A stretch of DNA of 46,683 bases from Clostridia bacterium. GTDB taxonomy: Bacteria; Bacillota; Clostridia; Christensenellales; Aristaeellaceae. The stretch is taken from the NCBI GenBank assembly GCA_017526525.1, contig JAFXRG010000026.1, positions 1 through 46,683 on the forward strand, read 5' to 3'. This document shows, in pieces, positions 27,150 through 41,661 of this stretch. The translations under genes and the position numbers were made by a program. The notes below the pieces were generated by a model, which saw nothing but the letters and a program-made list of their open reading frames with translations, made no database searches and was not told the origin of the DNA. How positions within the stretch are numbered: position 1 is the first letter of the stretch; each line of letters opens with the position of its first letter.

Positions 27150-27203
27150 AGAAGAAAGACCGGATCGGAAAAACCCGGTCAACGAATGGAGGAAAAACCG
27201 AAA

Positions 27204-27965
27204 ATGAAACTGAAAAAATTCTTTGCGTTCCTTCTGGCGTTCTGCCTGCTGTTTTCCGCCGCATCCGCGGAGCAGGTTGACATCTTTTCATCCATCGGCA
27301 ACTGGTTCGGCCAGGCCGTGAAGGATGCCGGCAAATGGGTTTCCCAGGCCTGGGAGGATTCCACCAAATGGGTGAACCAGGCGCTGGACGATTCCGGCAA
27401 ATGGGTGGCCCAGGCGTGGGAGGACTCCTCCAAATGGGTTTCCCAGGCCTGGACGGACAGCAGCAAATGGGTGGCCGATAACTGGACCGGCTTCCTGACC
27501 TGGGTCAAAACCATTACTTGGGACAATCCCTATACCTGGATCCCCACCGTGGTGCAGGAAAAAGGCGCCGCGGCCTACGACGAGTATGCCGCCTTCAAGG
27601 CCTTCCTGGCGGGCGGCCCGGACGCCGCCGCGGTCCGCGGGGAGTTCGCCAAACGGCTTGCCGCCCTGTCCCTGGCCCAGGAAGAGCAGGATTCCGTCTG
27701 GAACGTCCTGGCCAAATGGGCGGAGGATAAGAAAATCCCCCAGGAAAAAGCTGCCCTGCTGGCCATTCCCTGCCTGGTGCGGCTGAACCTCCTGGGCAAG
27801 TCCGTCCTGGGCCTGGGGGACAATGACCGCCTTACGGCTCCCATGGTCGCCCAGTACCAGCTGACCATCCTGGAGGCCATGCAGGTCAATTCCGCGGAGG
27901 ATGCGGAGGCCCGGCTCAACGCCCTCCGGTCCACCCTGGACCAGCTGGCAAAGCCGGCCGCCTGA
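27204..27965 (+). CDS. Secreted protein with 11-residue tryptophan repeats
   Basis: A 253-residue exported protein. The signal peptide covers residues 1-~22 (KKFFAFLLAFCLLFSAASA). Then come about five tandem units of 11 residues of the form KWVxQAWxDSx, followed by KWVADNW and a helical, Ala/Leu-rich C-terminal domain of ~150 residues. Eleven-residue periodicity predicts long amphipathic helices with a Trp stripe, as in surface- or membrane-associating proteins; no named family recognised. ATG 27204 has GGAGG 11 bases upstream; ATG 27186 overlaps that site. Monocistronic with its own promoter and a following hairpin. Confidence 0.78.
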   Translation: MKLKKFFAFLLAFCLLFSAASAEQVDIFSSIGNWFGQAVKDAGKWVSQAWEDSTKWVNQALDDSGKWVAQAWEDSSKWVSQAWTDSSKWVADNWTGFLTWVKTITWDNPYTWIPTVVQEKGAAAYDEYAAFKAFLAGGPDAAAVRGEFAKRLAALSLAQEEQDSVWNVLAKWAEDKKIPQEKAALLAIPCLVRLNLLGKSVLGLGDNDRLTAPMVAQYQLTILEAMQVNSAEDAEARLNALRSTLDQLAKPAA

Positions 27966-28134: not shown

Positions 28135-28165
28135 TTGACCTGACCACAGGTGGTTATGTTATCAT
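28135..28165 (+). promoter_or_regulatory. MerR-type promoter of operon A (peptide exporter)
   Basis: TTGACC (28135-28140), an over-long 19-bp spacer and TATCAT (28160-28165). The spacer contains ACCACAGGTGGT, centre of an imperfect inverted repeat whose 10-bp arms match at 8 positions. A 19-bp spacer holding a dyad between -35 and -10 is the MerR-family pattern. It matches 36322-36352 at 28 of 31 bases. Confidence 0.85.
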
Positions 28166-28208
28166 AAACGAAAACAGAAACCACCCGATGGACAGAGGTT
28201 GATATAAA

Positions 28209-28427
28209 ATGAGCATATTTCGCCAGAAAAGCCTGAAGCGAATCTCTTCTCCGGAACAGCTGAATGATTATATCCGTGTGACCCGGCCGTCGGTGTGGCT
28301 GGTGCTGGCAGCCGTGATCCTTCTCCTGGCCGGGATCATCGTATGGAGTATCCTGGGCACGGTTGAAGCCCGTGAAGCTGACGGCAGCACAAAGGAAATC
28401 CATCCCATCACGTTTGTTACCAATTAA
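28209..28427 (+). CDS. Truncated NHLM-type HlyD secretion protein (membrane stub)
   Basis: Seventy-two residues: a short cytoplasmic start (FRQKSLKRISSPEQLNDYI), a membrane span (VWLVLAAVILLLAGIIVW) and a ~20-residue tail. The beginning matches the first part of the HlyD-like proteins of NHLM peptide-export systems, but the biotinyl-lipoyl and beta-barrel parts are missing and a stop codon ends it. A continuation frame is not found before the ABC gene at 28454. It may be a purposely minimal membrane partner of the transporter, or a decayed gene kept by chance. First gene of operon A, about 40 bases after the expected start site. Confidence 0.7.
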   Translation: MSIFRQKSLKRISSPEQLNDYIRVTRPSVWLVLAAVILLLAGIIVWSILGTVEAREADGSTKEIHPITFVTN

Positions 28428-28453
28428 TGACCTTCTGAGCGGGAGATAAAACG

Positions 28454-30631
28454 ATGGCAGAGAAAACCGCCGGGCGCCCCGTCCGGAAAGGCGTGGCAAA
28501 AGTACCGATGGTCATGCAGCTCGAAGCGCTGGAATGCGGGGCTGCATGTCTTTGCATGCTGCTGGCCTATTATGGCAAATGGATTCCGCTGGAGCAGGTC
28601 CGCGCGGACTGCGGGGTAAGCCGGGACGGATCCACCGCTAAAAACATCCTGCGTGCAGCCCGCAATTACGGAATGAAAGCCCAGGGTTCCCGGTTTGAAC
28701 CGAAGATGCTGCGGGACAGGGGCCGGTTTCCCTGCATTATTCACTGGGAATTCAATCATTTTGTTGTCTGCAACGGATTCAAAGGGGATCGGGTATGGCT
28801 GAACGATCCGGCCGAGGGAACCTATTCCGTCAGCCTGGAACAGTTTGACCAGTCTTTTACCGGCGTTGTGCTGATGATGGAACCCGGGGAAGCATTTGAG
28901 CCGGGCGGAAAACCCAAAAGCGCGGTCTCCTTTATCCGGAAACGGCTGAAAGGAACGGAGGCTGCCGTTCTCTTCGTCGTGCTGACAACCGTGATCGCTT
29001 CCCTGACGGGGATTGTGAACGCGGGCTTTTCCCGCGCTTTCCTGGATTATCTCCTGCCGGGAACCAACCCGGACTGGGTGACGCCTTTTTTTATCGGGAT
29101 GGCTGCGGTGGCGGTTATCCAGATTGCCGCGGCCTGGATCCAGGCATTTTATTCCCTGCGGATCAACGGGAAAATGGCGGCGGAAGGAAATGTGTCCTAC
29201 ATATGGAAGGTGCTGAGACTGCCGATGAATTTCTTCTCCCAGCGGATGGCGGGGGATATCCAGGCGCGGAAGGAAAGCAATGCTTCCATCGCTGAAAACA
29301 TGGTCAGTACGCTGGCGCCGCTGGCGCTGAATACCGGCATGCTGGTTTTCTACCTGGTGGTTATGTTCCGGTATTCCTGGCTGCTGACGCTGATCGGGCT
29401 CTCCGCAATGGCTGTCAACTTTGCCATGTCCCGGTATATCAGCAACAAACGGATCAATATTACCCGGATTGCCATGCGGGATGAAGGAAAACTCGCCGGG
29501 GCCACCGTCGGCGCGCTGGACATGATCGAAACCATCAAAGCCAGCGGCGCGGAAAACGGATACTTTGAAAAATGGTCCGGATACCAGGCGTCCGTAAACA
29601 CTCAAAATGTCCGCTTTGCAAGAATAAACCTGTACCTGGGGATGATTCCGGAGGCTGTAAGCAGGCTCCTGGATGTCGCCGTGCTGATCCTGGGCGTATG
29701 GCTGACAATGCAGGGAAAGTTCACCGAAGGAATGATCCTGGCTTTCCAGGGATTCCTGTACGCGTTTATGGATCCCGCGGGCAGGCTGATTTCCGCCGGA
29801 CAGACCTTCCAGGAGATGCGCACCGGGATGGAACGCATTGAGGACGTCATGGAGTACCCGGATGATCCGGTGTTCGACGGAAAAGCGGAAAGCGCGGAAG
29901 AAATCAGCAAGCTTACCGGAAGCCTGGAAATGCGCAACGTCACGTTTGGCTATTCCAGGCTGGGGCCGCCCCTGATCGAGGATTTCAACCTGACGCTGAA
30001 ACCGGGGCAGCGGGTTGCCTTTGTGGGTGCTTCCGGATGCGGAAAATCCACGCTGGCGAATCTGATTTCCGGTCTGTATCAGCCCTGGAGCGGGGAAATC
30101 CTGTTTGACGGGGAACCGGTTTCCCGGATTGACCGGGACGCCTTCACCGGTTCCGTCGCGGTTGTGGACCAGGATATCATCCTCTTTGAGGACACGATTG
30201 CCGCAAACATCAAAATGTGGGATACCTCCATTGAGGACTACGAGATGATCATGGCGGCGCGGGATGCGAAAATCCATGAGGACATCATGCAGCGGGCGGG
30301 CGGCTATCAGTACCGGATTACGGAGGGCGGCCGGGATTTCTCGGGCGGCCAGCGGCAGCGCCTGGAGATTGCCCGGGTGCTGGCGCAGGATCCGACGATG
30401 ATTATCATGGACGAGGCCACCAGCGCGCTGGATGCCCGGACGGAATTCGAGGTGGTTGAATCCATCCGCAGGCGCCGGATTACCTGCGTTGTGATTGCCC
30501 ACAGGCTGTCGACCGTAAGGGATTGCGACGAGATCATCGTGATGGACCGGGGCAAGGTTGCGGAACGCGGAACCCATGAAGAACTGATGGCGCTGAACGG
30601 ACTGTATGCATCCCTGGTAACGTCTGAGTAA
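28454..30631 (+). CDS. C39 peptidase-ABC transporter (peptide leader cleavage and export)
   Basis: A 725-residue bacteriocin-type exporter of the NHLM ABC1 kind. The N-terminal C39 peptidase (~residues 15-135) has Gln22, catalytic Cys28 in LECGAAC, His102 in NHFVV and Asp118 in LNDPA, so double-glycine cleavage should work. Membrane spans occupy ~155-430. The ATPase (~480-715) has Walker A GASGCGKST, signature FSGGQRQR and Walker B IIMDEATSALD. It would remove leaders at GG and export cores, using ATP. The three Nif11-like peptides in operon B and the orphan GG peptide at 2909 are the visible candidates. It is followed 13 bases later by a second ABC gene. Confidence 0.95.
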   Translation: MAEKTAGRPVRKGVAKVPMVMQLEALECGAACLCMLLAYYGKWIPLEQVRADCGVSRDGSTAKNILRAARNYGMKAQGSRFEPKMLRDRGRFPCIIHWEFNHFVVCNGFKGDRVWLNDPAEGTYSVSLEQFDQSFTGVVLMMEPGEAFEPGGKPKSAVSFIRKRLKGTEAAVLFVVLTTVIASLTGIVNAGFSRAFLDYLLPGTNPDWVTPFFIGMAAVAVIQIAAAWIQAFYSLRINGKMAAEGNVSYIWKVLRLPMNFFSQRMAGDIQARKESNASIAENMVSTLAPLALNTGMLVFYLVVMFRYSWLLTLIGLSAMAVNFAMSRYISNKRINITRIAMRDEGKLAGATVGALDMIETIKASGAENGYFEKWSGYQASVNTQNVRFARINLYLGMIPEAVSRLLDVAVLILGVWLTMQGKFTEGMILAFQGFLYAFMDPAGRLISAGQTFQEMRTGMERIEDVMEYPDDPVFDGKAESAEEISKLTGSLEMRNVTFGYSRLGPPLIEDFNLTLKPGQRVAFVGASGCGKSTLANLISGLYQPWSGEILFDGEPVSRIDRDAFTGSVAVVDQDIILFEDTIAANIKMWDTSIEDYEMIMAARDAKIHEDIMQRAGGYQYRITEGGRDFSGGQRQRLEIARVLAQDPTMIIMDEATSALDARTEFEVVESIRRRRITCVVIAHRLSTVRDCDEIIVMDRGKVAERGTHEELMALNGLYASLVTSE

Positions 30632-30644
30632 AGGAGGAAGCCGA

Positions 30645-32858
30645 ATGGGCTGGTTTGACGATCAGATCCGGGAGCGCAAGGAAACGGAACAAGCCCTGTT
30701 CGAGGAATCCTTCCGGGCGATTGCCGGGGCCGTGATGGGAAGGCGCCTGTCGGAAGCGCTGAACAATGAACGGCAGGCAGCCACGGACGCCATCGGGGAA
30801 ATCCTGAAGTACTACCGTGTCCGGCCCCGGGAAGTACCGGATACCATCCGGGACATGAACGAGGTGCTGGAATACCTGATGCGCCCCTTCGGCATTATGC
30901 GGCGCAGCGTAAAACTTGGGAAAAACTGGTACAGGGATGCCGCGGGCGCGATGCTGGGAACACGGAAAGATGACGGAACCGTGGTGGCTTTGCTGCCCCG
31001 GGGACTGTCGGGCTATCATTTCCTGGACCGGAAAACAGGGAAATACGTTCGCGTAAACCGGGACACCGCCGCCCTGTTTGACGAGGAGGCTTTCGCGTTT
31101 TACAAACCGTTCCCTTTAAAGAAAATGAACACCCGGGACCTGGTGAAATATATACTGGGGCAGGTTTCCCCGGCGGATTCCGTCCTGCTGGCGGCGGCGG
31201 TGATCGCGGCGACGCTGGCCGGGATGTTCATGCCCCGCCTGAACGCCCTGCTGTTTTCGGACGTCCTGGCGTCCGGAAGCATAAAAATGCTGGCAGGCAT
31301 GGCCGTCTTTATGGCCTGCGCGGTTCTTTCCGCCCTGCTGTTTTCCACGGTGAAGAACTTCATCACTGCACGGATTACTTCCAGGGCAGGGATTGCGGTG
31401 GAGGCGGCGTCCATGATGCGCGTACTGTCCCTGCCGGCGGACTTTTTCAAACAGTACAGCTCGGGCGAACTGTCCAGCCGGATCAACTCCGTCAGTATCC
31501 TTGTAAAACAAATGGCGGAGACGATCCTGTCCACAGGCCTTGTCAGCCTGTTTTCCCTTGCCTATGTTTCGCAGCTTTTCCTGTATGCCCCGTCCATGGC
31601 CCGACCGGCTGTGCTGGTGATTATATGCACGTTCGCGATCTCCGCGGCAACGGTGCTGATACAGCTGAAAGTAACCCGGCAGCGTCTGGAGGTTTCCGCC
31701 AGGGAAAGCGGCGTCTGCCACGCCATGATCAGCGGCATCCGGAAAATCCGGCTGGCCGGCGCAGAAACGAGGGCTTTTGCCCGGTGGGGAAGGGTATACG
31801 CCGAAAGTGCCCGGCTGGCCTATAATCCGCCCATATTCCTGAAAATCGGAACGGTCATCAGCCTTGCTGTTTCCACGGTCGGCATGATGGTACTGTATTA
31901 TACGGCGATCCGCAGCAAAGTCTCCGTATCGGACTATTACGCGTTCAATTCCGCATACGGCACGGTCAGCGGGGCATTCCTCACCCTGTCCGGTGTTGCG
32001 GCTTCTGTGGCGCAGATCAAGCCGATTATGGACCTGGTGAAACCCATTCTGGAAACCGTGCCGGAGATTGACGAGAACAGGGTGATGGTGACCCGGCTCT
32101 CCGGGGGAATCGAATTGAACAACGTTTCGTTCCGGTACCAGGAGGATATGCCCCTGATCCTGGACAACCTGAGCCTGAAAATCCGGCCGGGGCAGTATGT
32201 GGCCATCGTCGGGAAGACCGGATGCGGAAAGAGCACCCTGATGCGGATCCTGCTGGGATTTGAAAAACCGCAGAAAGGGGCCGTGTACTATGACGGACGG
32301 GACCTGAAAACCCTGGATCCCAAATCCCTGCGCAGGTGCATCGGCAGCGTGATACAGGACGGGAAACTCTTCATGGGGGATATGTACTCCAACATTACGG
32401 TTTCCGCTCCCTGGCTGACGGTCGACGACGCCTGGGAAGCGGCGGAGGCTGCCGGGCTCGCGGAGGATATCCGGCAGATGCCCATGGGAATGAACACGCT
32501 GATTTCAGAGGGCCAGGGCGGAATCTCCGGGGGGCAGCGCCAGCGGATCATGATCGCCCGGGCCATCGCCCCGAAACCGAAGGTCCTGATGTTTGACGAA
32601 GCGACAAGCGCGCTGGACAACCTGACACAAAAGCAGGTTTCCGAAGCGCTGGACAGGATGAAATGCACCCGGATCGTGATTGCCCACCGGCTGAGCACCA
32701 TCCGGCAGTGCGACCGGATCATCGTGCTGGAGGGCGGACGGATCGTTGAAGACGGAACCTATGAGGAGCTCATCGCCGGGAACGGGGTTTTTTCCGAACT
32801 GGTTGCCCGGCAGATGCTGAACCGGCCCGATAAAAACGAAGGAGGAAAGGGAACATGA
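30645..32858 (+). CDS. Second NHLM-type ABC transporter (no peptidase)
   Basis: A 737-residue permease-ATPase without C39. The first ~150 residues are a soluble helical/beta region (MGWFDDQIRERKETEQ start) typical of NHLM ABC2 proteins, thought to be a degenerate accessory domain. Membrane spans cover ~175-440; the ATPase has GKTGCGKST, ISGGQRQR and VLMFDEATSALD, all intact. Pairing with the preceding ABC1 suggests the two form a heterodimer or work in sequence on the same peptide. The stop overlaps the STAS gene start (ATGA at 32855). Confidence 0.93.
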   Translation: MGWFDDQIRERKETEQALFEESFRAIAGAVMGRRLSEALNNERQAATDAIGEILKYYRVRPREVPDTIRDMNEVLEYLMRPFGIMRRSVKLGKNWYRDAAGAMLGTRKDDGTVVALLPRGLSGYHFLDRKTGKYVRVNRDTAALFDEEAFAFYKPFPLKKMNTRDLVKYILGQVSPADSVLLAAAVIAATLAGMFMPRLNALLFSDVLASGSIKMLAGMAVFMACAVLSALLFSTVKNFITARITSRAGIAVEAASMMRVLSLPADFFKQYSSGELSSRINSVSILVKQMAETILSTGLVSLFSLAYVSQLFLYAPSMARPAVLVIICTFAISAATVLIQLKVTRQRLEVSARESGVCHAMISGIRKIRLAGAETRAFARWGRVYAESARLAYNPPIFLKIGTVISLAVSTVGMMVLYYTAIRSKVSVSDYYAFNSAYGTVSGAFLTLSGVAASVAQIKPIMDLVKPILETVPEIDENRVMVTRLSGGIELNNVSFRYQEDMPLILDNLSLKIRPGQYVAIVGKTGCGKSTLMRILLGFEKPQKGAVYYDGRDLKTLDPKSLRRCIGSVIQDGKLFMGDMYSNITVSAPWLTVDDAWEAAEAAGLAEDIRQMPMGMNTLISEGQGGISGGQRQRIMIARAIAPKPKVLMFDEATSALDNLTQKQVSEALDRMKCTRIVIAHRLSTIRQCDRIIVLEGGRIVEDGTYEELIAGNGVFSELVARQMLNRPDKNEGGKGT

Positions 32859-33154
32859 CGCTTGAAAAGGACGCAACCGGAACCCGGCTGACCATCGTGC
32901 CGGATGCGGAGCTGGATACCATTGCCGCGCGGGAGCTGGAAGGGGAGCTGCGCATGGCGATCGACGGGGTTACAGAACTGGTTTTCGATATGCGCGAGGT
33001 CAACTATATGGCATCCGCCGCCCTGCGTGTGCTTCATTCGGCGCAGAAGGTGATGAAAACCCAGGGGAGCATGGTGGTCCGCAATGTGAAACCGGAAGCA
33101 ATGGAGATCTTTGAGGTTACAGGATTTGTGGACCTGCTGACGATCGAAACCTGA
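32855..33154 (+). CDS. STAS-domain protein (anti-anti-sigma type)
   Basis: A 99-residue single STAS domain, like SpoIIAA/RsbV. The phospho-acceptor segment is VNYMASAALRVL with Ser54. In known systems a kinase phosphorylates this serine and a PP2C phosphatase removes it, switching binding to a partner. The next gene encodes both such activities. It begins inside the ABC2 stop codon, so its synthesis is coupled to transporter production. No sigma factor is nearby, so the output partner is not obvious. Confidence 0.9.
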   Translation: MTLEKDATGTRLTIVPDAELDTIAARELEGELRMAIDGVTELVFDMREVNYMASAALRVLHSAQKVMKTQGSMVVRNVKPEAMEIFEVTGFVDLLTIET

Positions 33155-33204
33155 CGACGGAACCGTACGGCGGAAAACCTCCGGGAAGACGAGGGATCAT
33201 CCAT

Positions 33205-35451
33205 ATGAAAAAGAAGAAAAAAAAGATATCCGGCACATTCCGGAAATGGCTCAGCATCATTGTGCTGACCGCTTTTGTGCTGTCCCTGCTGTTCTCCTGG
33301 CTGTACCAGACCGGGAAGGTGCGGGACAACGCGGCCAGCCTGCTGAAAATCAACATTGAGGATGTGCGGCAGGATACCATCGACGCGTCCGATGAAAACC
33401 TGCTGAAACTGACGGAGCAGATTGCCGGCGAGCTGGACCGGCTGGAGGAAGGCGCCTCATCGGAGGATCTTCCGGCGCTGATGGAAAAATACGATGTGGC
33501 GGAAATCAACGTGATCAACGAAAAAGGGATCATTACCGCTTCCACCTATCCGTTATTCCTGAACTACAATATGTACGACGGGAGCCAGTCCGCTGAATTC
33601 ACATGCCTGCTGGACGGCGGCCTTACCTCTTTTGTCCAGAGCTACCAGCCGATCTCCCGTGATCCGTCCCTGTCCCGGAAATACGCAGGCGTCACGCTGA
33701 AGCGGGGGGGCTTCGTCCAGGTCGGCTATGACGCGGAACGCTTCCAGCGGGATATCGACAAGCAGATTATCGGCGTTACCCGGAACCGGCATGTGGGGGA
33801 AACCGGCAGCGTGATCGTTGCCAATGAAAACCAGGTGATTGTCAGCGACCGGCACCAGTATGAAGGGCAGGAGCTGGCGGCAACCGGAATCCGGATCGAC
33901 CGGGAGGCCATGAAGCCGGACACGGTCTGCATGGCTACGGTATACGGAAAAGAAAGCTATCTGATGTACACCTTCACTGAAGGATACTATATTATTTCAG
34001 TCATTCCGAGCAATGAGCTCCTGCTTTCGCGGAATACGTCCGTGATGATGACGGCGTTCATGGATATTGTGGTTTTCCTGGAGCTGTTTATCCTGGTTGT
34101 TATCCTTGTCCGGCAGCTGGTCGTTAAAAACATCGACAGCGTCAACGGATCGCTTTCCCGCATTACCGAGGGCAACCTGGATGTGGAGGTGGATGTACGG
34201 GACAGCGCGGAGTTCTCCTCCCTGTCGGACGATATCAACACGACCGTCGCAACGCTTAAAAAGTATATCGCCGACGCATCCGCCCGGATCGACCAGGAAC
34301 TGGAATTCGCCCGGGTGATCCAGCTTTCCGCGATGCCGCGGGTCTTTCCGCAGCGGGAGGAATTTGAGATTTACGCGACGATTGATCCGGCCAGGGAAGT
34401 CGGCGGGGATTTCTATGATTTTTTCCAGGTGGATGAGGATCACCTGGCGCTGGTCATCGCGGATGTCAGCGGGAAAGGAATTCCCGCAGCGATGTTCATG
34501 ATGACAGCCAAATCGCTGATCAAGAACCGGGCCCGGCTGGGGGAAAACCCGGAAGAAATCCTCGGCCATGTGAATAACCAGCTGTGCGAGGGAAACGACG
34601 CGGAACTGTTTGTTACCGTATGGCTGGCCATTATCGAGCTGTCAACCGGGAAAGGCCTTGCCGTCAATGCCGGACACGAACACCCGGTTCTCCGCCGGGC
34701 GGGGGGCGCCTATGAACTGGTAAAATACCGCCATGCTCCCGCTGTCGGACTGGAGGAAGGCATCCGCTTCCGGCAGCACGCGTTTGAAATGCATCCCGGA
34801 GACAGCCTGTTCGTCTATACCGACGGCGTACCGGAAGCGCACGATCCGGAGAACCGGCAATACGGCACCGAGAGAATGCTTTCCGCCCTGAACCGCCGTC
34901 CGGACGCATCCCAGAAGGAACTCCAGGAGACTGTCCGGGCGGATGTGGACAGCTTCAAGGGAGACGCGCCGCAGTTCGACGATATCACCATGCTCGGATT
35001 CCTTTACAACGGTTCCGGAAAGACCGGCACGGACGGGAAAACGGAAGAAGTGACGGTGGATGCGACAATGGATAACCTGCCGCAGGTCATGGCGCCGGTG
35101 ATCCGCGCCCTGGAAAAACTGGAATGCCCGCCGGAAACCGGAAGACATGTCCGGACCGCGGTGGAGGAACTGTACGTCAATATTGAAAGCTACGCCTATG
35201 CGCCGGGAACCGGCCCGGTGACCGTCCGCGTTCGCACGGAAACGGATCCGCGGGCAATCACCGTCACCCTCATTGACAAAGGGATTCCGCATGATCCGCT
35301 GAAAAAACCCGATCCGGACCTGACGCTCTCCCTGGAGGACAGGCCGATCGGGGGGATGGGGATCTATATGGTAAAAAAATTTATGGATGAGGCGTCCTAC
35401 CGGTATGACGACGGCCGGAACATGCTGACAATCCGCAAGATGATTCCCTGA
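33205..35451 (+). CDS. Membrane SpoIIE-type phosphatase fused to a HATPase (RsbW-like) domain
   Basis: A 748-residue sensor. A basic start leads into span 1 (~14-33), an extracellular ligand-sensing region (~35-270), span 2 (~280-305) and a HAMP-like linker (ITEGNLDVEVDV). A PP2C/SpoIIE domain (~385-590) has GGDFYDF, IADVSGKG, YTDGVPEAHD and DDITML. A HATPase_c domain (~620-745) has EELYVNIESYAY, LIDKGIPHDP and GGMGIYMVKKF. So one chain holds both a phosphatase and a possible kinase acting on the neighbouring STAS protein, governed by an outside signal. The ribosome site (GAGGGA) is weak. Last gene of operon A, ending 25 bases from the convergent regulator. Confidence 0.92.
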   Translation: MKKKKKKISGTFRKWLSIIVLTAFVLSLLFSWLYQTGKVRDNAASLLKINIEDVRQDTIDASDENLLKLTEQIAGELDRLEEGASSEDLPALMEKYDVAEINVINEKGIITASTYPLFLNYNMYDGSQSAEFTCLLDGGLTSFVQSYQPISRDPSLSRKYAGVTLKRGGFVQVGYDAERFQRDIDKQIIGVTRNRHVGETGSVIVANENQVIVSDRHQYEGQELAATGIRIDREAMKPDTVCMATVYGKESYLMYTFTEGYYIISVIPSNELLLSRNTSVMMTAFMDIVVFLELFILVVILVRQLVVKNIDSVNGSLSRITEGNLDVEVDVRDSAEFSSLSDDINTTVATLKKYIADASARIDQELEFARVIQLSAMPRVFPQREEFEIYATIDPAREVGGDFYDFFQVDEDHLALVIADVSGKGIPAAMFMMTAKSLIKNRARLGENPEEILGHVNNQLCEGNDAELFVTVWLAIIELSTGKGLAVNAGHEHPVLRRAGGAYELVKYRHAPAVGLEEGIRFRQHAFEMHPGDSLFVYTDGVPEAHDPENRQYGTERMLSALNRRPDASQKELQETVRADVDSFKGDAPQFDDITMLGFLYNGSGKTGTDGKTEEVTVDATMDNLPQVMAPVIRALEKLECPPETGRHVRTAVEELYVNIESYAYAPGTGPVTVRVRTETDPRAITVTLIDKGIPHDPLKKPDPDLTLSLEDRPIGGMGIYMVKKFMDEASYRYDDGRNMLTIRKMIP

Positions 35452-35476
35452 TCCGGGCCGGAGAAGCGCGGCGGGT

Positions 35477-36298
35477 TTAGTCCGCGCCGGATACCGGCAC
35501 GACAATCCGGTAGCAGTAGTGCTCCGACGCAATATGGTTGCCGGTATAGGGAGCAACCAGGCCGATGAACCGCACGGGACCGGCCGGCCGGATTTTCCGG
35601 GCAATAATCTCCTCCCGGAAACGCGCGTCAAGCGTGCCGATCATCGAATAATCCCCATAGGCCAGCCCGGAAAAGGCATGAACCGCCGGAAAGGTGACCA
35701 GGTGCGGATCCCCGTGCCCGCCGGGAATCACCGGAATACAGGCCGTTGACGTGTGCGGATGATCCATAACCGGGCTGCTGACCTGCCAGTCATCCGAAAA
35801 GATCCCGAACAGCGGCTCCGTTCCGTTCAGCTGGTATCCGGCGCTGATACACTGCTCGTGCACCCTGTAGAAAAAAGTTTCGCCGTCTTCCGCGGAAGTG
35901 AGGACCGATGAAACGCAGTAGCAGGTGACTTCCGAAAGATCCACGAAGGAAAAGCTCAGCGAAGGAAGTCCGCCGCTGCGTACTTCCAGCTCTTCCAGCG
36001 TGCGCTGCATCCGGCTGAGCTTTTCGCGCTGCCTGCGCAGGAATTCACGGCTGTCCTCCCGCTGATAATAGCAATCCGAAATCTCTGTGCGGGTCAGGCC
36101 CAGGGACTGCAGTATCAGATACTGCCCGACCTGGGAGGCGTTATACGCGTCATAATACCGGTATCCTGTTTCCGGATCCACGCGGCAGGGGGTCAGGACC
36201 CCGCTTTCCTCAATGCGGATCAGCGTTGTACGGCTGACGCCGCAGGCACGGGAGAATTCCTTCATCGTGAAAAGTTTACGGTCTTCCGGGAAATTCAT
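35477..36298 (-). CDS. MerR-family transcriptional regulator
   Basis: A 273-residue regulator. Residues ~10-80 are a MerR winged helix (FTMKEFSRACGVSRTTLIRI, then GYRYYDAYNASQ), followed by a helix (~90-125) and a C-terminal effector-like domain of ~145 residues (YCVSSVLTSAEDG) resembling GyrI/multidrug-binding forms. I chose ATG 36298, preceded by AAGGAG 9 bases up; an earlier ATG at 36334 lacks a site and runs into the promoter region. It is divergent from operon B and between the two operons with matching MerR-type promoters, so it probably controls both. The ligand is unknown. Confidence 0.9.
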   Translation of the reverse strand: MNFPEDRKLFTMKEFSRACGVSRTTLIRIEESGVLTPCRVDPETGYRYYDAYNASQVGQYLILQSLGLTRTEISDCYYQREDSREFLRRQREKLSRMQRTLEELEVRSGGLPSLSFSFVDLSEVTCYCVSSVLTSAEDGETFFYRVHEQCISAGYQLNGTEPLFGIFSDDWQVSSPVMDHPHTSTACIPVIPGGHGDPHLVTFPAVHAFSGLAYGDYSMIGTLDARFREEIIARKIRPAGPVRFIGLVAPYTGNHIASEHYCYRIVVPVSGAD

Positions 36299-36321
36299 TG
36301 CCGACACTCCTTCATAATCGC

Positions 36322-36352
36322 TTGACCTGACCATGGGTGGTTATGTTAACAT
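36322..36352 (+). promoter_or_regulatory. MerR-type promoter of operon B (peptide operon)
   Basis: TTGACC (36322-36327), 19-bp spacer and TAACAT (36347-36352). The spacer has ACCATGGGTGGT at the centre of an imperfect dyad. It differs from 28135-28165 at 3 of 31 bases. Transcription would start near 36359, leaving a ~114-base leader. Confidence 0.85.
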
Positions 36353-36472
36353 CTTAGCACAGAACAACCGAATGTCAATTTTTCCGGAATACCTGCCGGA
36401 AAAAACAGTTTCCTGTACGCATACGGAAATGGAAAACCTGCGTCAGGGCGAAAAAAATTCAGGAGGAAGACC

Positions 36473-38635
36473 GTGAGGAAAATTCTGAGTATCTGCCTGA
36501 TTGTTGCGCTGCTGTTCACCAGCCTGGCGGCTGTACCGGCATCGGGCGAACCGGCTTTCAGCAGCAGCCTGCGGGCGGAACTGGCGGCACAGTATGAAGC
36601 ACTGCTGCCGGATCTGGGCATCCGCGCGGAGGAATGGGAAAACGAGATGAACCGCTGCACCGATGAGGAAAAGGTCATTATGCAGTATTATTTCATCACA
36701 ACCGATATGAGCGCGCTGTGCAGCATTGATTTCTCCCTGCTGCACAGCTTTGCCGCACACGCGGCCATGCTCCGCGAAACCATGCCGTGGACCCGGGAGC
36801 TGGACGAAGAAACATTCCTCTGCTATGTCGCGTCCTACCGCGTTCTGAAAGAGCCGATTGTGGACTACCGGCCTTTTTTCTATGAACAGCTGGCCGGAAA
36901 AATCAAAGGCCGGTCCCTGACCGAAGCGGCATTGCTGGTAAATTTCTGGTGCGGGTCACAGGCGACATATGCCGATACCGACCAGCGGGAAGCATCCCCG
37001 CTGGGCATGGTCAACGGAGGCTTCGGACGGTGCGGTGAAGAAACCAATTTTGTCGTCAATACGCTCCGCAGCGTGGGGATTCCTGCCCGGGAATGCAACG
37101 TTAAATGGACCACAGTACCGGGAGGCCATACTGTTGTGCAGGCGCTGATTGACGGGGAATGGCACTATATGGGCGCGTGTGAGCCTGACCCGGTGCTGGA
37201 CAGCGCATGGTGCTCCAGCCGGTTCGGCAGCATCCTCATGACGGAATCCCGTACCTTCAGTTCCATCGGACTCGGGGAAGTCCGGGACAACCGGGATGTT
37301 ATATACTATGAAGGCAAAGGTCTTTACGCTCTCAATGACATCAGCAATTTTGTGGAAACAAAGGAACTCGACCTGACAGTGCTGGACAAAAACGGGGAAC
37401 CTGCGGCCGGTGCGGCGGTGAAACTTGTGCTGGTACAGCCCGAAACCTGGGTCATCGTCCTGGTCGACCGGTTAACGGATGAAGCCGGAAAAGCGCGCTT
37501 TACCCTGGGGAAGGGCAGCATTGGCGCTGTTGCCTTTCTGGACGGAGAGTGGCGCTGGGAATGGATTGCGCAGGACCAGACAGAGGCCACGCTTTCCTTT
37601 GCCGAAACACCGGAATATGATGAATGGATTGCTTTCCCGATACAGTACAGCGAAGCAGACACCAGGCTGTGGCAGTCCTGCACCGAGGAGGACAGGACGG
37701 CGCTCTTCGGTGAAAAAAACTGTGATGAACTCCGCGCCGAAAACCACGCCGGGGATTTCGACGCGGAACGGGCAGCACCCTATCCGGACTGTGAGACAAG
37801 CCTCCGCAATGCCGGAAAAAACTTCAGCCAGCTGATTGCTTTCCTGGAGAAGGACAACGATCCCCTGCGCATCCGGCTTGTGGCGGGCCTGACGGATAAA
37901 TACTGCCGGGAAGTCAGCGCGGAGGTGCTGGAGGACATCCTGCAGGGAGCCGGGAATGTGCGGGACAGCCTCAGTGAGGATGATTTTGTGAAAGGCATCC
38001 TGCTTCCCGTAACGGAATGGGGTTATTTCACGCCCCAGCGCCTGCCTGTGCAGCAGATGTTCACGGCGGAGGAAATGCAGGCTTTCCGGGAGGATCCCTC
38101 CGTGCTGGTACAGTGGTTTGCGGAAAACATTCATGGTGAATGCATCCGACCGAACAGAGGCGCGGAACCAGTGCTTACCGCAGTCCTGAAAACCGGCTTT
38201 TGCCCGGATCAATACCGGACAGGGATGCTGATGGAGCTGGCCCGGGCGGTGGGGATTCCCGTATGCCAGGATCCGGAAACCGGAGCATGGCTTTCTCCCG
38301 GCACAGACGGCTGGGCGCCGGTTGACTGGCTGGCCGGAACCGGTGAACCGGAAGCAGAAGCGCCTGCCGGTGAGGTGTTGTACAAGGCTGCGGGCAGCGA
38401 ACCGTACACGGGATTGTTCTGGGGCATTATAAGCCTTAACAGCGGCGGCGTATTTGAAGATTTTTGCGTCTGGCTGGTTGAAGAGACGGATGAAGATACC
38501 GCAATTCCGCTTCCGGCCGGGGACTATATGATGATCATGGAGGACATGCAGGCGGAGAAATCGGGGACCCTGTATTTCAAACGCTTTACGGTAAAAGACG
38601 GAGAAACAGCGACCCTCTCACTGCCGGAAAAATAA
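36473..38635 (+). CDS. Secreted transglutaminase-like protein
   Basis: A 720-residue exported protein starting at GTG, with AGGAGGA 5 bases upstream. A signal peptide covers residues 1-~24. The transglutaminase-like core (~160-245) has Cys187 in GGFGRCGEET, His219 in VPGGHTV and Asp239 in CEPDP, a plausible Cys-His-Asp triad. A carboxypeptidase-regulatory-like beta domain (LTVLDKNGEPAAGAAVK) follows, and near 560-640 a second, degenerate-looking copy (LKTGFCPDQYRTGMLMEL, WAPVDW). It could act as a peptidase or cross-linking enzyme outside the cell. First gene of operon B, 15 bases before the first peptide gene. Confidence 0.85.
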   Translation: MRKILSICLIVALLFTSLAAVPASGEPAFSSSLRAELAAQYEALLPDLGIRAEEWENEMNRCTDEEKVIMQYYFITTDMSALCSIDFSLLHSFAAHAAMLRETMPWTRELDEETFLCYVASYRVLKEPIVDYRPFFYEQLAGKIKGRSLTEAALLVNFWCGSQATYADTDQREASPLGMVNGGFGRCGEETNFVVNTLRSVGIPARECNVKWTTVPGGHTVVQALIDGEWHYMGACEPDPVLDSAWCSSRFGSILMTESRTFSSIGLGEVRDNRDVIYYEGKGLYALNDISNFVETKELDLTVLDKNGEPAAGAAVKLVLVQPETWVIVLVDRLTDEAGKARFTLGKGSIGAVAFLDGEWRWEWIAQDQTEATLSFAETPEYDEWIAFPIQYSEADTRLWQSCTEEDRTALFGEKNCDELRAENHAGDFDAERAAPYPDCETSLRNAGKNFSQLIAFLEKDNDPLRIRLVAGLTDKYCREVSAEVLEDILQGAGNVRDSLSEDDFVKGILLPVTEWGYFTPQRLPVQQMFTAEEMQAFREDPSVLVQWFAENIHGECIRPNRGAEPVLTAVLKTGFCPDQYRTGMLMELARAVGIPVCQDPETGAWLSPGTDGWAPVDWLAGTGEPEAEAPAGEVLYKAAGSEPYTGLFWGIISLNSGGVFEDFCVWLVEETDEDTAIPLPAGDYMMIMEDMQAEKSGTLYFKRFTVKDGETATLSLPEK

Positions 38636-38650
38636 AAAGGAGGAGAAAAA

Positions 38651-38887
38651 ATGAGCAAGGCACAGGAAATCATGAAACAACTGCTGGACAACGAGGACTA
38701 CGAGGCCATCTCCTCGGAAGAGAACCTGCGGAAAGCCCTGGGCGAACGGGGTTGCGACCCGGAGGAGATCGACGGGCTCCTGGCCGGATTCAACGGGTTC
38801 CCGCTGGATGACGACGATCTGGATGCGGCAGCCGGGGGAGGCAGCATGAGCGCGGCCGGTCGCGCAAGAATGGCGGATATTAGTTAG
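38651..38887 (+). CDS. Nif11-like RiPP precursor peptide, copy 1
   Basis: Seventy-eight residues: a 63-residue acidic leader (MSKAQEIMKQLLDNEDYEAI start, DDDDLDAAAGG end) and a 15-residue core GSMSAAGRARMADIS. The leader style, with a final DLD-A-GG, fits the Nif11-like precursor group cut by C39 peptidases. The core has no cysteine, three serines and two arginines, so Ser is the obvious site for any sugar. AAGGAGGAGA precedes the ATG. Confidence 0.85.
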   Translation: MSKAQEIMKQLLDNEDYEAISSEENLRKALGERGCDPEEIDGLLAGFNGFPLDDDDLDAAAGGGSMSAAGRARMADIS

Positions 38888-38962
38888 GTTGGTGAGCATT
38901 AACAAAAAAACCGAAGCAGATCCTTTCTATGCTGAAGAATCCGGTTATGGAGGAAAAAGGAA

Positions 38963-39199
38963 ATGAGCAAGGCACAGGAAATCATGAAACAGCTGCTGGA
39001 CAACGAGGACTACGAGGCCATCTCCTCGGAGGAGAACCTGCGGAAAGCCCTGGGCGAACGGGGCTGCGACCCGGAGGAGATCGACGGGCTCCTGGCCGGA
39101 TTCAACGGTTTCCCGCTGGATGACGACGATCTGGATGCGGCAGCCGGGGGAAGCAGCTTGAGCGCGGCCGGTCGCAGGAGATTTACGGATCCTGGGTAA
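38963..39199 (+). CDS. Nif11-like RiPP precursor peptide, copy 2
   Basis: Leader of 63 residues identical to copy 1; 15-residue core SSLSAAGRRRFTDPG. SxSAAGR is shared with copy 1 and the rest differs. A ribosome site GGAGG and a repeated spacer come before it. The contrast between an invariant leader and a changed core is the usual sign of a processed peptide family. Confidence 0.85.
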   Translation: MSKAQEIMKQLLDNEDYEAISSEENLRKALGERGCDPEEIDGLLAGFNGFPLDDDDLDAAAGGSSLSAAGRRRFTDPG

Positions 39200-39268
39200 A
39201 GGGGAATAACAAAAAACCGAAGCAGATCCTTTCTATGCTGAAGGATCCGGATATGGAGGAAAAAAGAA

Positions 39269-39574
39269 ATGAGCAAGGCACAGGAAATCATGAAACAACT
39301 GATGGAAAGCAAGGACCAGGAAGCCCTCGCTTCGGAGGAGAACCTGCGGAAAGCCCTGGGCGAACGGGGCTGCGATCTGGAGGAGATCGACGGAATCCTG
39401 GCCGGATTCAACGGTTTCCCGCTGGATGACAGCGACCTGGACGACGTGGCGGGAGGGGGAAATGCAAAGCTTCCGCTGGGAACTATGACAGAACATTTCC
39501 AGACGGAAACTCCGGATCCCACCACACGGGCAAAGCTTATTACGAAAGTACAGAACCCTGCAGTTAAGGGGTAA
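39269..39574 (+). CDS. Nif11-like RiPP precursor peptide, copy 3 (longer core)
   Basis: 101 residues; the leader (63 residues) differs at about ten positions but keeps SEENLRKALGERGCD and ends DLDDVAGG. The 38-residue core is Thr-, Pro- and Lys-rich (TMTEHFQTETPDPTTR), with six threonines and no cysteine. It differs entirely from the other two cores, so the operon could yield at least two kinds of product. It is followed immediately by the first glycosyltransferase gene. Confidence 0.83.
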   Translation: MSKAQEIMKQLMESKDQEALASEENLRKALGERGCDLEEIDGILAGFNGFPLDDSDLDDVAGGGNAKLPLGTMTEHFQTETPDPTTRAKLITKVQNPAVKG

Positions 39575-39579
39575 ACACG

Positions 39580-40551
39580 GTGACGGAAAGCAAAGGAAGC
39601 ATTTCTCTCAGCATCTGCATGATTGTCCGGAATGAAGAAGCCGTCATGGCGCGCTGCCTGGATTCTGTACAGGGCGCCTGGGATCAGCTTGTCATTGTTG
39701 ATACGGGTTCGGAGGACCGTACGACGGAGATCGCCCGCCGCTACACCCCCGAGGTATACCATGAACCCTGGGAAAACGACTTTGGCAAGGCGCGGAACAG
39801 CTCCTTTTCCTATGCCCGCTGCGACTATATCCTGTATATGGATGCGGATGACGTCCTGCCGGACGCGGAACGGGAAAAGCTGATGCGGCTGAAACAGGAC
39901 CTGGCGGCCATGCCGGCGGAAGAGCGGCCCCGTACGATCATGATGCCTTATGATGTGCCGGAAGCAGGAGGCATTTCCTTCCGGTCCAGGATGGTGGCCC
40001 GGCACGAAGGCCCGTACTGGAACGGAGCCATCCATGAATGCATGTACCTGGAAGAGCCCATGATGCAAACGGATATCCTGTTTCTGCACCGCAAAGTGGT
40101 TCAGCCGCCAAAAGACCGCAACTGCAGCATCATCCGCTCCATCCCGCGGGAGACGCTGCGGCAGAATTTCTGGCTGAGTGCCCAGTGCTTCCTGGATATG
40201 ACACTGGCAGGATACGCGGAAGAAGCGGAAGCTTATTTCCGGATGTGCACCGAAGCGCAGCGGAACCGGACCGCGGATACATGCCTGCAGCTTGCATCCA
40301 CGCTGAATCATCATCAATACCGGGAACAGGCGCTGCGGTGGGTTCGGCTGGCGGAAACCATTCCCGCGAATGATCCGGAAATCACGGTGCTGCTGTATCA
40401 GCAGGGAGCCAAGGCCTGCTCCGGCCTCGGCAGGATTGATGAAGCCATTGCCTATAACGAAAGCGTGCTTCAGATCTCCCCGGAAAACCGTGCCGCCAGG
40501 ATCAACCGTATTTACCTGGAACAAAAGAAAAAGGAGAACACCCCGACATGA
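39580..40551 (+). CDS. GT2-family glycosyltransferase with helical repeat tail (1)
   Basis: A 323-residue GT-A enzyme. The N-terminal ~210 residues have ICMIVRNEEAVMARCLDS, VIVDTGSEDRT and the metal-binding DAD at 88-90 (MDADD). The C-terminal third has TPR-like helices (EEAEAYFRMCTEAQ). The same layout occurs in SunS-type transferases that put sugars on exported peptides. GTG start, 5 bases after the third peptide's stop, with AAGGGG as ribosome site. It is a strong candidate for peptide modification; general cell-surface glycosylation is the alternative. Confidence 0.88.
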   Translation: MTESKGSISLSICMIVRNEEAVMARCLDSVQGAWDQLVIVDTGSEDRTTEIARRYTPEVYHEPWENDFGKARNSSFSYARCDYILYMDADDVLPDAEREKLMRLKQDLAAMPAEERPRTIMMPYDVPEAGGISFRSRMVARHEGPYWNGAIHECMYLEEPMMQTDILFLHRKVVQPPKDRNCSIIRSIPRETLRQNFWLSAQCFLDMTLAGYAEEAEAYFRMCTEAQRNRTADTCLQLASTLNHHQYREQALRWVRLAETIPANDPEITVLLYQQGAKACSGLGRIDEAIAYNESVLQISPENRAARINRIYLEQKKKENTPT

Positions 40552-41648
40552 GCGAAGGAGTCACGCTGAGCGTCTGCATGATTGTCCGGGATGAATCTCC
40601 TGTGCTGGCCAGGTGCCTGGACGGCGTCCGTGTGTTCGCGGATGAAATCATCATCGTGGATACGGGATCCGTGGATGACACAAAGCAGATTGCGCGGCGG
40701 TATACGGACCGGGTTTATGATTTTCCCTGGATCGATGATTTTTCCGCCGCGCGAAACGTTTCCTACTCCTACGCTTCAAAAGACTATGTGATGTGGCTGG
40801 ACGCGGACGACGTGGTTTCCCCGGCGGACGCGGAGGAACTGAAAGCGCTGAAAAAGACCCTGCCGCGGGAAACGGACGTGGTATACCTGCTCTATGGCGG
40901 CGAAACCGATCAGAAGAACATCATGAACAACATGGTCCTGTTCCGTGACCGCTGGATGCGGCGGAGCCTGAATCCGCGGTGGCAGGGACGGCTGCATGAA
41001 TTCATTCCCTGCCCGCCGGAGGCAGTGCGGTATTTCGCGGACCGGATCCGGATCCTCCACTGCAAGGTCCGTGTCAACGACCCGGACCGGAATATGCGCA
41101 TCCACCGGCTGTGCATGGCGGAACAGAAAGAGCCGCCCGTCCGGGACCTGAGTTTCCTCTGCAATGAATATTTCGGGCAGGAGCGGTACAGCGATGCCGT
41201 TTCTTTGTTCAATGAACTGACGGCCCGGGATCCTTTTCCAAGGCATGAAGTATGCTTTGCCCTCCTTGCTTACATCCAAAGCATGAAGGCGCTGAAAAAA
41301 ACGGATGAACTGATCGGGCGGCTTCTTTCACTCCGGGAAAACGGGATCGAAAACGAAATGCTGCTGTGCGAACTTGGAGCAGCCTGTCTGGCCCGGAATC
41401 AGCTGGAGGAAGCGGAACACTGGCTGCTGGAAACCCTCCGAACGCCGGTGGATTACCGGGACATGATGATTCATTTTGAAGCCTACCGGGAGTTTATTCC
41501 CTGCCAGAAGCTGAGCAAGCTGTACATGCTTCTGGGAAAAGAGGAGCTTGCGTATCAGTTTTTTACCAGGGCGGAAAAGATTTATCCCGAAAACAGATCC
41601 ATCCGGGTAAACCGGCTGTATTTTGCTTCCAGGCACGCTCCCGCATAA
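40548..41648 (+). CDS. GT2-family glycosyltransferase with helical repeat tail (2)
   Basis: A 366-residue paralogue of the preceding enzyme: VCMIVRDESPVLARCLDG, IIVDTGSVDDT and LDADD with the DXD at 85-87. Its repeat tail is longer (~150 residues: AEHWLLETLR, GKEELAYQFFTRAEK). Its ATG overlaps the previous stop (ATGA), so the two enzymes are made together. Two transferases could add two sugars in turn or serve different cores. Last gene of operon B; a terminator overlaps its stop codon. Confidence 0.88.
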   Translation: MSEGVTLSVCMIVRDESPVLARCLDGVRVFADEIIIVDTGSVDDTKQIARRYTDRVYDFPWIDDFSAARNVSYSYASKDYVMWLDADDVVSPADAEELKALKKTLPRETDVVYLLYGGETDQKNIMNNMVLFRDRWMRRSLNPRWQGRLHEFIPCPPEAVRYFADRIRILHCKVRVNDPDRNMRIHRLCMAEQKEPPVRDLSFLCNEYFGQERYSDAVSLFNELTARDPFPRHEVCFALLAYIQSMKALKKTDELIGRLLSLRENGIENEMLLCELGAACLARNQLEEAEHWLLETLRTPVDYRDMMIHFEAYREFIPCQKLSKLYMLLGKEELAYQFFTRAEKIYPENRSIRVNRLYFASRHAPA

Positions 41649-41661
41649 AGCGGGATTTTTT
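41640..41661 (+). terminator. Rho-independent terminator of operon B
   Basis: CCCGC (41640-41644), loop ATAAA holding the stop codon, GCGGG (41650-41654) and a T-run to 41661. The stem is short (5 bp) but GC only. Confidence 0.8.

Follow-up and report, generated by a model that had tools for sequence, protein, structure and literature searches.

The 46,683-nucleotide contig JAFXRG010000026.1 of a Clostridia bacterium (assembly GCA_017526525.1) places an NHLM-type peptide exporter, three short precursor genes and two glycosyltransferase genes in adjoining operons, raising the question of whether these genes form one system, and if so, what that system makes. The window analyzed here is this one entire contig, from an incomplete genome of 2.76 Mb that is 63.7% complete. 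We consider it fairly probable that the locus is a two-operon, co-regulated system of the ribosomally synthesized and post-translationally modified peptide (RiPP) type, which would make, glycosylate and export three small peptides. The step of which we are most confident is export: the precursors, which carry a Gly-Gly (GG) site, are in all likelihood substrates of the NHLM exporter.

Two operons under one promoter sequence

Operon 1 has its promoter at 28135 and encodes, in order, a small HlyD-type protein (mini-HlyD), the two transporter subunits ABC1 and ABC2, and then STAS and SpoIIE-HATPase proteins. In operon 2, a promoter at 36322 is followed by genes for a transglutaminase-like protein (TGL), the three precursors and the transferases GT1 and GT2, with a terminator-like hairpin at the end; a MerR gene lies between the operons on the opposite strand. 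The features are as follows.

28135-28165, +: P1, promoter/operator of the exporter operon (TTGACC, 19-bp spacer, TATCAT); 28/31 identical to P2
28209-28427, +: mini-HlyD, 72 residues, probable membrane anchor; partial TIGR03794 match below cut-off
28454-30631, +: NHLM exporter ABC1 with C39 peptidase; TIGR03796 over cut-off, Peptidase_C39 2.3e-34
30645-32858, +: NHLM exporter ABC2; TIGR03797 over cut-off
32855-33154, +: STAS-domain protein, anti-sigma antagonist type; STAS 5.7e-13, TIGR00377 over cut-off
33205-35451, +: SpoIIE phosphatase with HATPase_c_2 and a HAMP-like stretch; domain matches, HAMP below cut-off
35477-36334, -: MerR-family regulator, divergent from operon 2; MerR 29.2 bits, cut-off 28.2
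36322-36352, +: P2, promoter/operator of the precursor-transferase operon; 28/31 identical to P1
36473-38635, +: TGL, secreted transglutaminase-like protein; Transglut_core 36.3 bits, cut-off 23
38651-38887, +: precursor 1, 78 residues, core GSMSAAGRARMADIS after GG; open reading frame (ORF) of the leader family
38963-39199, +: precursor 2, 78 residues, core SSLSAAGRRRFTDPG after GG; ORF of the leader family
39269-39574, +: precursor 3, 101 residues, 38-residue core after GG; ORF of the leader family
39580-40551, +: GT1, GT2-family transferase with helical-repeat C-terminus; domain matches, predicted fold
40548-41648, +: GT2, transferase paralogous to GT1, TPR repeats; domain matches, sequence only
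41639-41655, +: terminator-like hairpin and T run, end of operon 2; consensus match, one of 26 such hairpins in the region against 16.7 expected

Every part listed by an earlier, sequence-only reading of this DNA was recovered (C39-ABC and second ABC transporters, STAS/SpoIIE unit, MerR, TGL, precursors and enzymes of the GT2 fold), and its statement that lanthionine, radical-SAM and YcaO enzymes are absent agrees with a scan of the operon proteins, in which none of these families was matched. It had placed all of these parts between two like promoters; the promoters are indeed alike, but each heads one operon and neither flanks the set, and the 72-residue HlyD gene (28209-28427) had been overlooked.

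P1 and P2 are identical at 28 of 31 bases and each has a spacer of 19 bp; the likeness drops to background on either side. Nowhere else in the window do as many as 20 of the 31 bases match, and a scan of the genome (2.76 Mb, 63.7% complete) allowing up to three mismatches returned P1 and P2 as sole matches, with none for a reversed control pattern. That the same 31-bp promoter heads both operons, with no third match, argues against an accidental juxtaposition of two independent units, one an exporter for other peptides and the other a TGL-precursor-transferase cassette, which we judge very improbable. A 19-bp spacer is a mark of MerR-type promoters, and MerR may be the activator of both operons. 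Because the annotated MerR start overlaps P2, the true start is probably a later ATG, more likely the one at residue 13; a candidate promoter for this gene at 36378-36351 (minus strand) matches the consensus at 10 of 12 positions, in a scan that finds no more such sites than shuffled sequence does. A simple pattern revealed no 31-bp motif upstream of TGL at two related loci, L098 and L099, described below.

Operon 1 holds the STAS, PP2C phosphatase and HATPase kinase domains typical of SpoIIE/STAS/HATPase partner-switching modules, but here the phosphatase and kinase domains are fused and set beside an NHLM exporter. It is from this domain content that the sequence-only reading took its response to an outside signal, in which SpoIIE and STAS could play regulatory roles. 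Neither a ligand nor a cognate sigma factor was identified, no genome search having been aimed at the latter.

Precursors, transferases and the transglutaminase-like protein

Precursors 1 and 2 share one identical leader of 63 residues, and that of precursor 3 is a close variant. Seven precursors were compared, comprising the three of the window, two from L098 and one each from L099 and L103. All seven have Leu at position -12 and Leu or Ile at -7 before GG, and hydrophobic residues at these positions before a GG-type site are described in a section of PMC12457901 as the rule for most C39 substrates. The pairing of a C39 exporter with leaders of this kind, by which glycocins are recognized, is therefore present in full, in the C39 domain and in 7/7 precursors. 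When window ORFs of 40-140 residues were screened for hydrophobic -12 and -7 residues before GG, five were found, three of them the precursors.

The cores point to a possible site of modification. Ser or Thr occupies core position 2 in six of the seven precursors (0.0002 by composition shuffle), while positions 1 and 3-8 did not stand out in the same comparison. With one precursor per locus the value is 0.00045 if precursor 1 represents the window, a pattern that is broken if precursor 3 is chosen instead. The L103 core contains a single Ser/Thr, at position 2, and the residue at this position is the predicted sugar site.

For the GT1 structure model, the best matches are SunS and ThuS, both peptide transferases, and they extend over almost the entire model; the SunS/ThuS-type architecture, a GT2-family catalytic domain followed by a helical-repeat C-terminus, is found in GT1 by fold and in GT2 by sequence only; the two represent distinct subfamilies. 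The best solved match to GT1 by sequence is GmaR, which glycosylates flagellin; its absence from the structure-match lists excludes nothing. In a GT1 scan of genome contigs, from which the best 80 of 306 loci were retained, collagen-like frames lay within 4 kb of GT1 relatives at 53 of the 80 (L100-L177; Clostridia and Paenibacillus records among others). Because the GT1 model best matches SunS and ThuS and because 53/80 loci adjoin collagen-like proteins, this transferase family probably glycosylates polypeptides. Among 100 relatives of the window genome (99 without the genome itself) GT1 gave 14 matches at E<=1e-20, two of them among the 44 of the same genus; these two, in frames of more than 650 residues, were not accepted as orthologues.

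These observations bear on a quite improbable explanation, in which the transferases add sugars to a polymer of the wall or capsule and the precursors are unconnected genes that happen to lie nearby. In its favor, the catalytic fold of GT1 is also common to WrtF, TarS and TarP, and L103 contains extra transferases, together with a radical SAM protein and a sugar-nucleotide enzyme of the dehydratase type. However, the nearly full-length structural match is to SunS/ThuS, the neighbors of the family are collagen-like proteins, no flippase, polymerase or ligase family was matched among the 10 window and 10 L103 proteins scanned, and at all four loci (the window, L098, L099 and L103) the precursors are part of the cassette.

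TGL combines a signal-peptide-like start, judged by eye, with a Transglut_core domain. It is conserved over its length (56% identity to L098, 60% to L099), and C187, H219 and D243, invariant in the three TGLs, could form a transglutaminase-type site. Its structure model, built from three sequences, is poor (predicted local distance difference test, pLDDT, 48.9), and its best solved match by sequence reaches 0.0014 over about 60 residues. Lys and Gln are both absent from three of the seven cores, so Gln-Lys cross-linking is unlikely as a general role, and processing or binding of the peptides is likelier. Since TGL is so conserved and adjoins the transferases in the window, L098 and L099, and since transferases of this family act on large proteins, the peptides might instead be exported unmodified by the NHLM system while the transferases glycosylate TGL or another secreted protein. 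We regard this as unlikely, given that Ser/Thr at core position 2 is retained while the remainder of the cores varies, and that L103 has a precursor and both transferase subfamilies without a TGL match, although this locus starts at a contig end, which leaves a TGL further upstream possible and makes its absence weaker evidence.

Recurrence of the cassette and its link to the exporter

Glycosylation of exported peptides also gains support from related loci. A leader hidden Markov model gave strong precursor matches in three of the 80 GT1 loci, L098 (a Lachnospiraceae metagenome-assembled genome, MAG), L099 (an uncultured Clostridia MAG) and L103 (an Eubacteriales MAG), each with both GT1 and GT2. 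The loci were found via GT1, so this pairing is partly built in; searches with the precursors found no strong precursor without the transferases. L098 and L099 keep the window order of TGL, precursor(s), GT1 and GT2. L103, with six transferase genes in total, reads GT8-TPR, radical SAM, two GT2-family genes, GT1-like, GT2-like, precursor, dehydratase-type sugar-nucleotide enzyme, second GT1-like, mini-HlyD, ABC1, ABC2, SpoIIE and STAS. The radical SAM protein, GT8-TPR protein and dehydratase-type enzyme beside the same precursor family (L103:85-9388) possibly make a more elaborate glycopeptide.

The precursor family is rare, occurring in 1/300 genomes of the family (searched with only precursor 1), 1/391 of the class and 2/297 of the order, and in 1/199 relatives of the L099 genome and 2/295 of the L098 genome, in overlapping sets that each include the centre genome. 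The second matches in the order and L098 sets (G884, 24.2 bits; G1311, 25 bits) were set aside as weak matches to a different type of peptide: both are GG-leader peptides that lie next to NHLM exporters, and the stretches read gave no GT1 or GT2 match.

The exporter itself is well defined, as ABC1 scores 931.4 bits with TIGR03796 (cut-off 853.3) and ABC2 733.7 bits with TIGR03797 (cut-off 709.4). Mini-HlyD reaches 37.4 bits with TIGR03794, under its cut-off of 156.2, and covers model positions 1-45 of 421. A mini-HlyD match occurred at each of the 40 NHLM loci retrieved (from relatives and from the window's own genome), many of these matches being in longer frames with unsure starts; the 40 are part of a larger number in the relatives. 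Nine short HlyD proteins read by eye (28209-28427; L060, L061, L063, L090, L091, L103, L190, L191) have 72-139 residues; all retain the N-terminal anchor, as well as a PI[ST] motif close to the C-terminus. At least one of STAS, SpoIIE and HATPase was matched near 16 of the 40 exporter loci, several of which are cut by contig ends, and at L103 alone among the 80 transferase loci. Exporters are common among the relatives of the window genome (39/100). At L190 and L192 a gene resembling a sigma factor, by eye, stands immediately upstream of the HlyD gene. The window's own genome has three more NHLM ABC1 genes (G000:C43, C5 and C24; L055-L057), of which two exceed the cut-off and the third, which falls short of it, lies at a contig end. 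At L055 there is also an ORF resembling a GG precursor, which scores 15.4 bits with TIGR03798, too few for the cut-off of that model.

At the exporter loci L060 and L090, which have a 72-residue mini-HlyD, STAS and SpoIIE are present and no TGL, MerR, GT1 or GT2 match was found in the 20 kb read; operon 2 therefore looks like an addition to a widespread exporter unit. That the units occur separately elsewhere, the exporter at L060 and L090 and the cassette at L098 and L099, would favor two independent neighbors in the window, as would the separate precursors of the exporter loci in the L098 and L099 genomes. Against this, the cassette leaders obey the C39 rule, L103 unites both units, and a genome search found an NHLM exporter over cut-off in each of the L098, L099 and L103 genomes. 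No exporter was linked to the L098 or L099 cassette on the stretches read; exporters occur in 14/144 and 5/148 of the respective relatives, centres left out, and the joint chance of finding one in both genomes is about 0.003, which, with two binned assemblies, is no more than suggestive. The related loci support one system. The search of related genomes that the sequence-only reading had proposed accordingly shows recurrence of the gene set, with the qualification that in L098 and L099 the exporter lies elsewhere. Comparison likewise lends good support to the export of small GG-leader peptides by the NHLM transporter, as it had suggested, and to their glycosylation by the two transferases, which is deduced from related enzymes.

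Several results weigh against the system proposed here. In the L098 and L099 genomes, the exporter is accompanied by separate GG precursors, which belong to other types (the L190 precursor scores 21.5 bits with TIGR03798, below cut-off, and the L191 precursor was judged by eye). The leaders had been called Nif11-like, a description that the formal TIGR03798 model does not bear out: precursors 1 and 3 matched no family at E<=1, and precursor 2 and the first L098, L099 and L103 precursors did not match TIGR03798 at E<=0.1 (six scanned in all). Likewise, the transferases had been called SunS-type, which agrees with the fold of GT1, but their scores of 61.2 and 49.3 bits with the SunS model TIGR04195 fall short of its cut-off of 350. 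Finally, six of the seven cores contain no Cys and one L098 core contains one; because all three window cores are without cysteine, this is not a classic glycocin.

A candidate pathway and its relation to known systems

The evidence is consistent with a pathway in which MerR would act on the two near-identical promoters and turn on both operons, operon 1 supplying the NHLM exporter and a phosphatase/STAS switch, and operon 2 the three precursors and their enzymes. GT1 and GT2 would modify each precursor's core before the leader is removed. GT1 is the candidate enzyme for adding the first sugar, to Ser/Thr at core position 2, while GT2 is the candidate for adding a second one or for using a second site. 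The C39 domain of ABC1 would then cleave after GG, the ABC1/ABC2 pair and mini-HlyD would export cores of 13-38 residues, and the secreted TGL may process, anchor or receive the peptide outside. Such products would be small glycopeptides, most of them lacking cysteine, and a role as signals or narrow bacteriocins is likelier than a structural one. Of this scheme, the sequence itself shows the gene set, the promoter pair, the leader rule, the recurrence and the transferase fold; glycosylation with its site and order, what MerR, TGL and SpoIIE/STAS do, and the purpose are inferences. It is conceivable, although we hold this only tentatively, that they constitute a distinct RiPP class of short, mostly cysteine-free linear glycopeptides, whose glycan would start on Ser/Thr at core position 2 and be lengthened by a second, dedicated transferase. 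Exported by NHLM transporters with a mini-HlyD, they would serve Clostridia-type bacteria as glycosylated signals controlled by MerR and SpoIIE/STAS, and the secreted TGL would be an extracellular processing enzyme or receptor.

Like the glycocins (sublancin/SunS, ThuS, glycocin F, thermoglycocin), the locus combines a C39 exporter, leader removal at a GG-type site and a transferase of the GT2 fold. To our knowledge, few glycocins have been characterized. Those treated in the consulted part of PMC12457901 are disulfide-bonded, whereas the window has cysteine-free cores of 13-38 residues, two transferase subfamilies far below the SunS model cut-off, a two-ABC NHLM exporter and a TGL. With the NHLM/NHLP and Nif11-type export systems, described in Haft et al. 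2010 (PMC2887384), it shares ABC1 and ABC2 over curated cut-offs, GG precursors and a HlyD-type N-terminus; unlike them, it has transferases, a HlyD of only 72 residues and no TIGR03798 match, and the scan of its operon proteins returned no lanthionine, YcaO or radical SAM family. The words 'glycosyl' and 'SpoIIE' do not occur in the main text of PMC2887384. A further parallel is SgtA-BclA3 of C. difficile, in which, according to an excerpt of PMC7157674, O-GlcNAc is placed on Thr and Ser of peptides by a transferase of about 360 residues encoded next to its polypeptide substrate, a likeness drawn from description; the SgtA substrate, however, is a spore-surface collagen-like protein (PMC7157674). 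Within the open PubMed Central library, we found no report in print of NHLM export combined with GG precursors and glycosyltransferases, nor a publication on NHLM together with SpoIIE. We regard the locus as a variant of glycosylated, C39-exported peptide systems, set apart by these differences. If this is correct, it adds cysteine-free glycopeptides and ties NHLM export to glycosylation, provides two new candidate peptide-glycosyltransferase subfamilies usable on short peptides, and opens the purpose of one kind of NHLM peptide to tests with synthetic substrates of 15 residues.

A viral or plasmid origin was considered and rejected: alignments of TGL and the precursors against viral_contigs gave no relative, and GT1 matched 205 plasmid records, every one below 60% identity. 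The window contained no Rfam family or tRNA. Elsewhere, at L202:9913-12500, several short GG precursors with Cys-containing cores lie beside an NHLM exporter and a protein that by eye is radical SAM-like. Just upstream of the exporter operon, at 27186-27965, the window encodes a protein of 259 residues whose start resembles a signal peptide and which carries Trp-rich repeats, each about 11 residues long.
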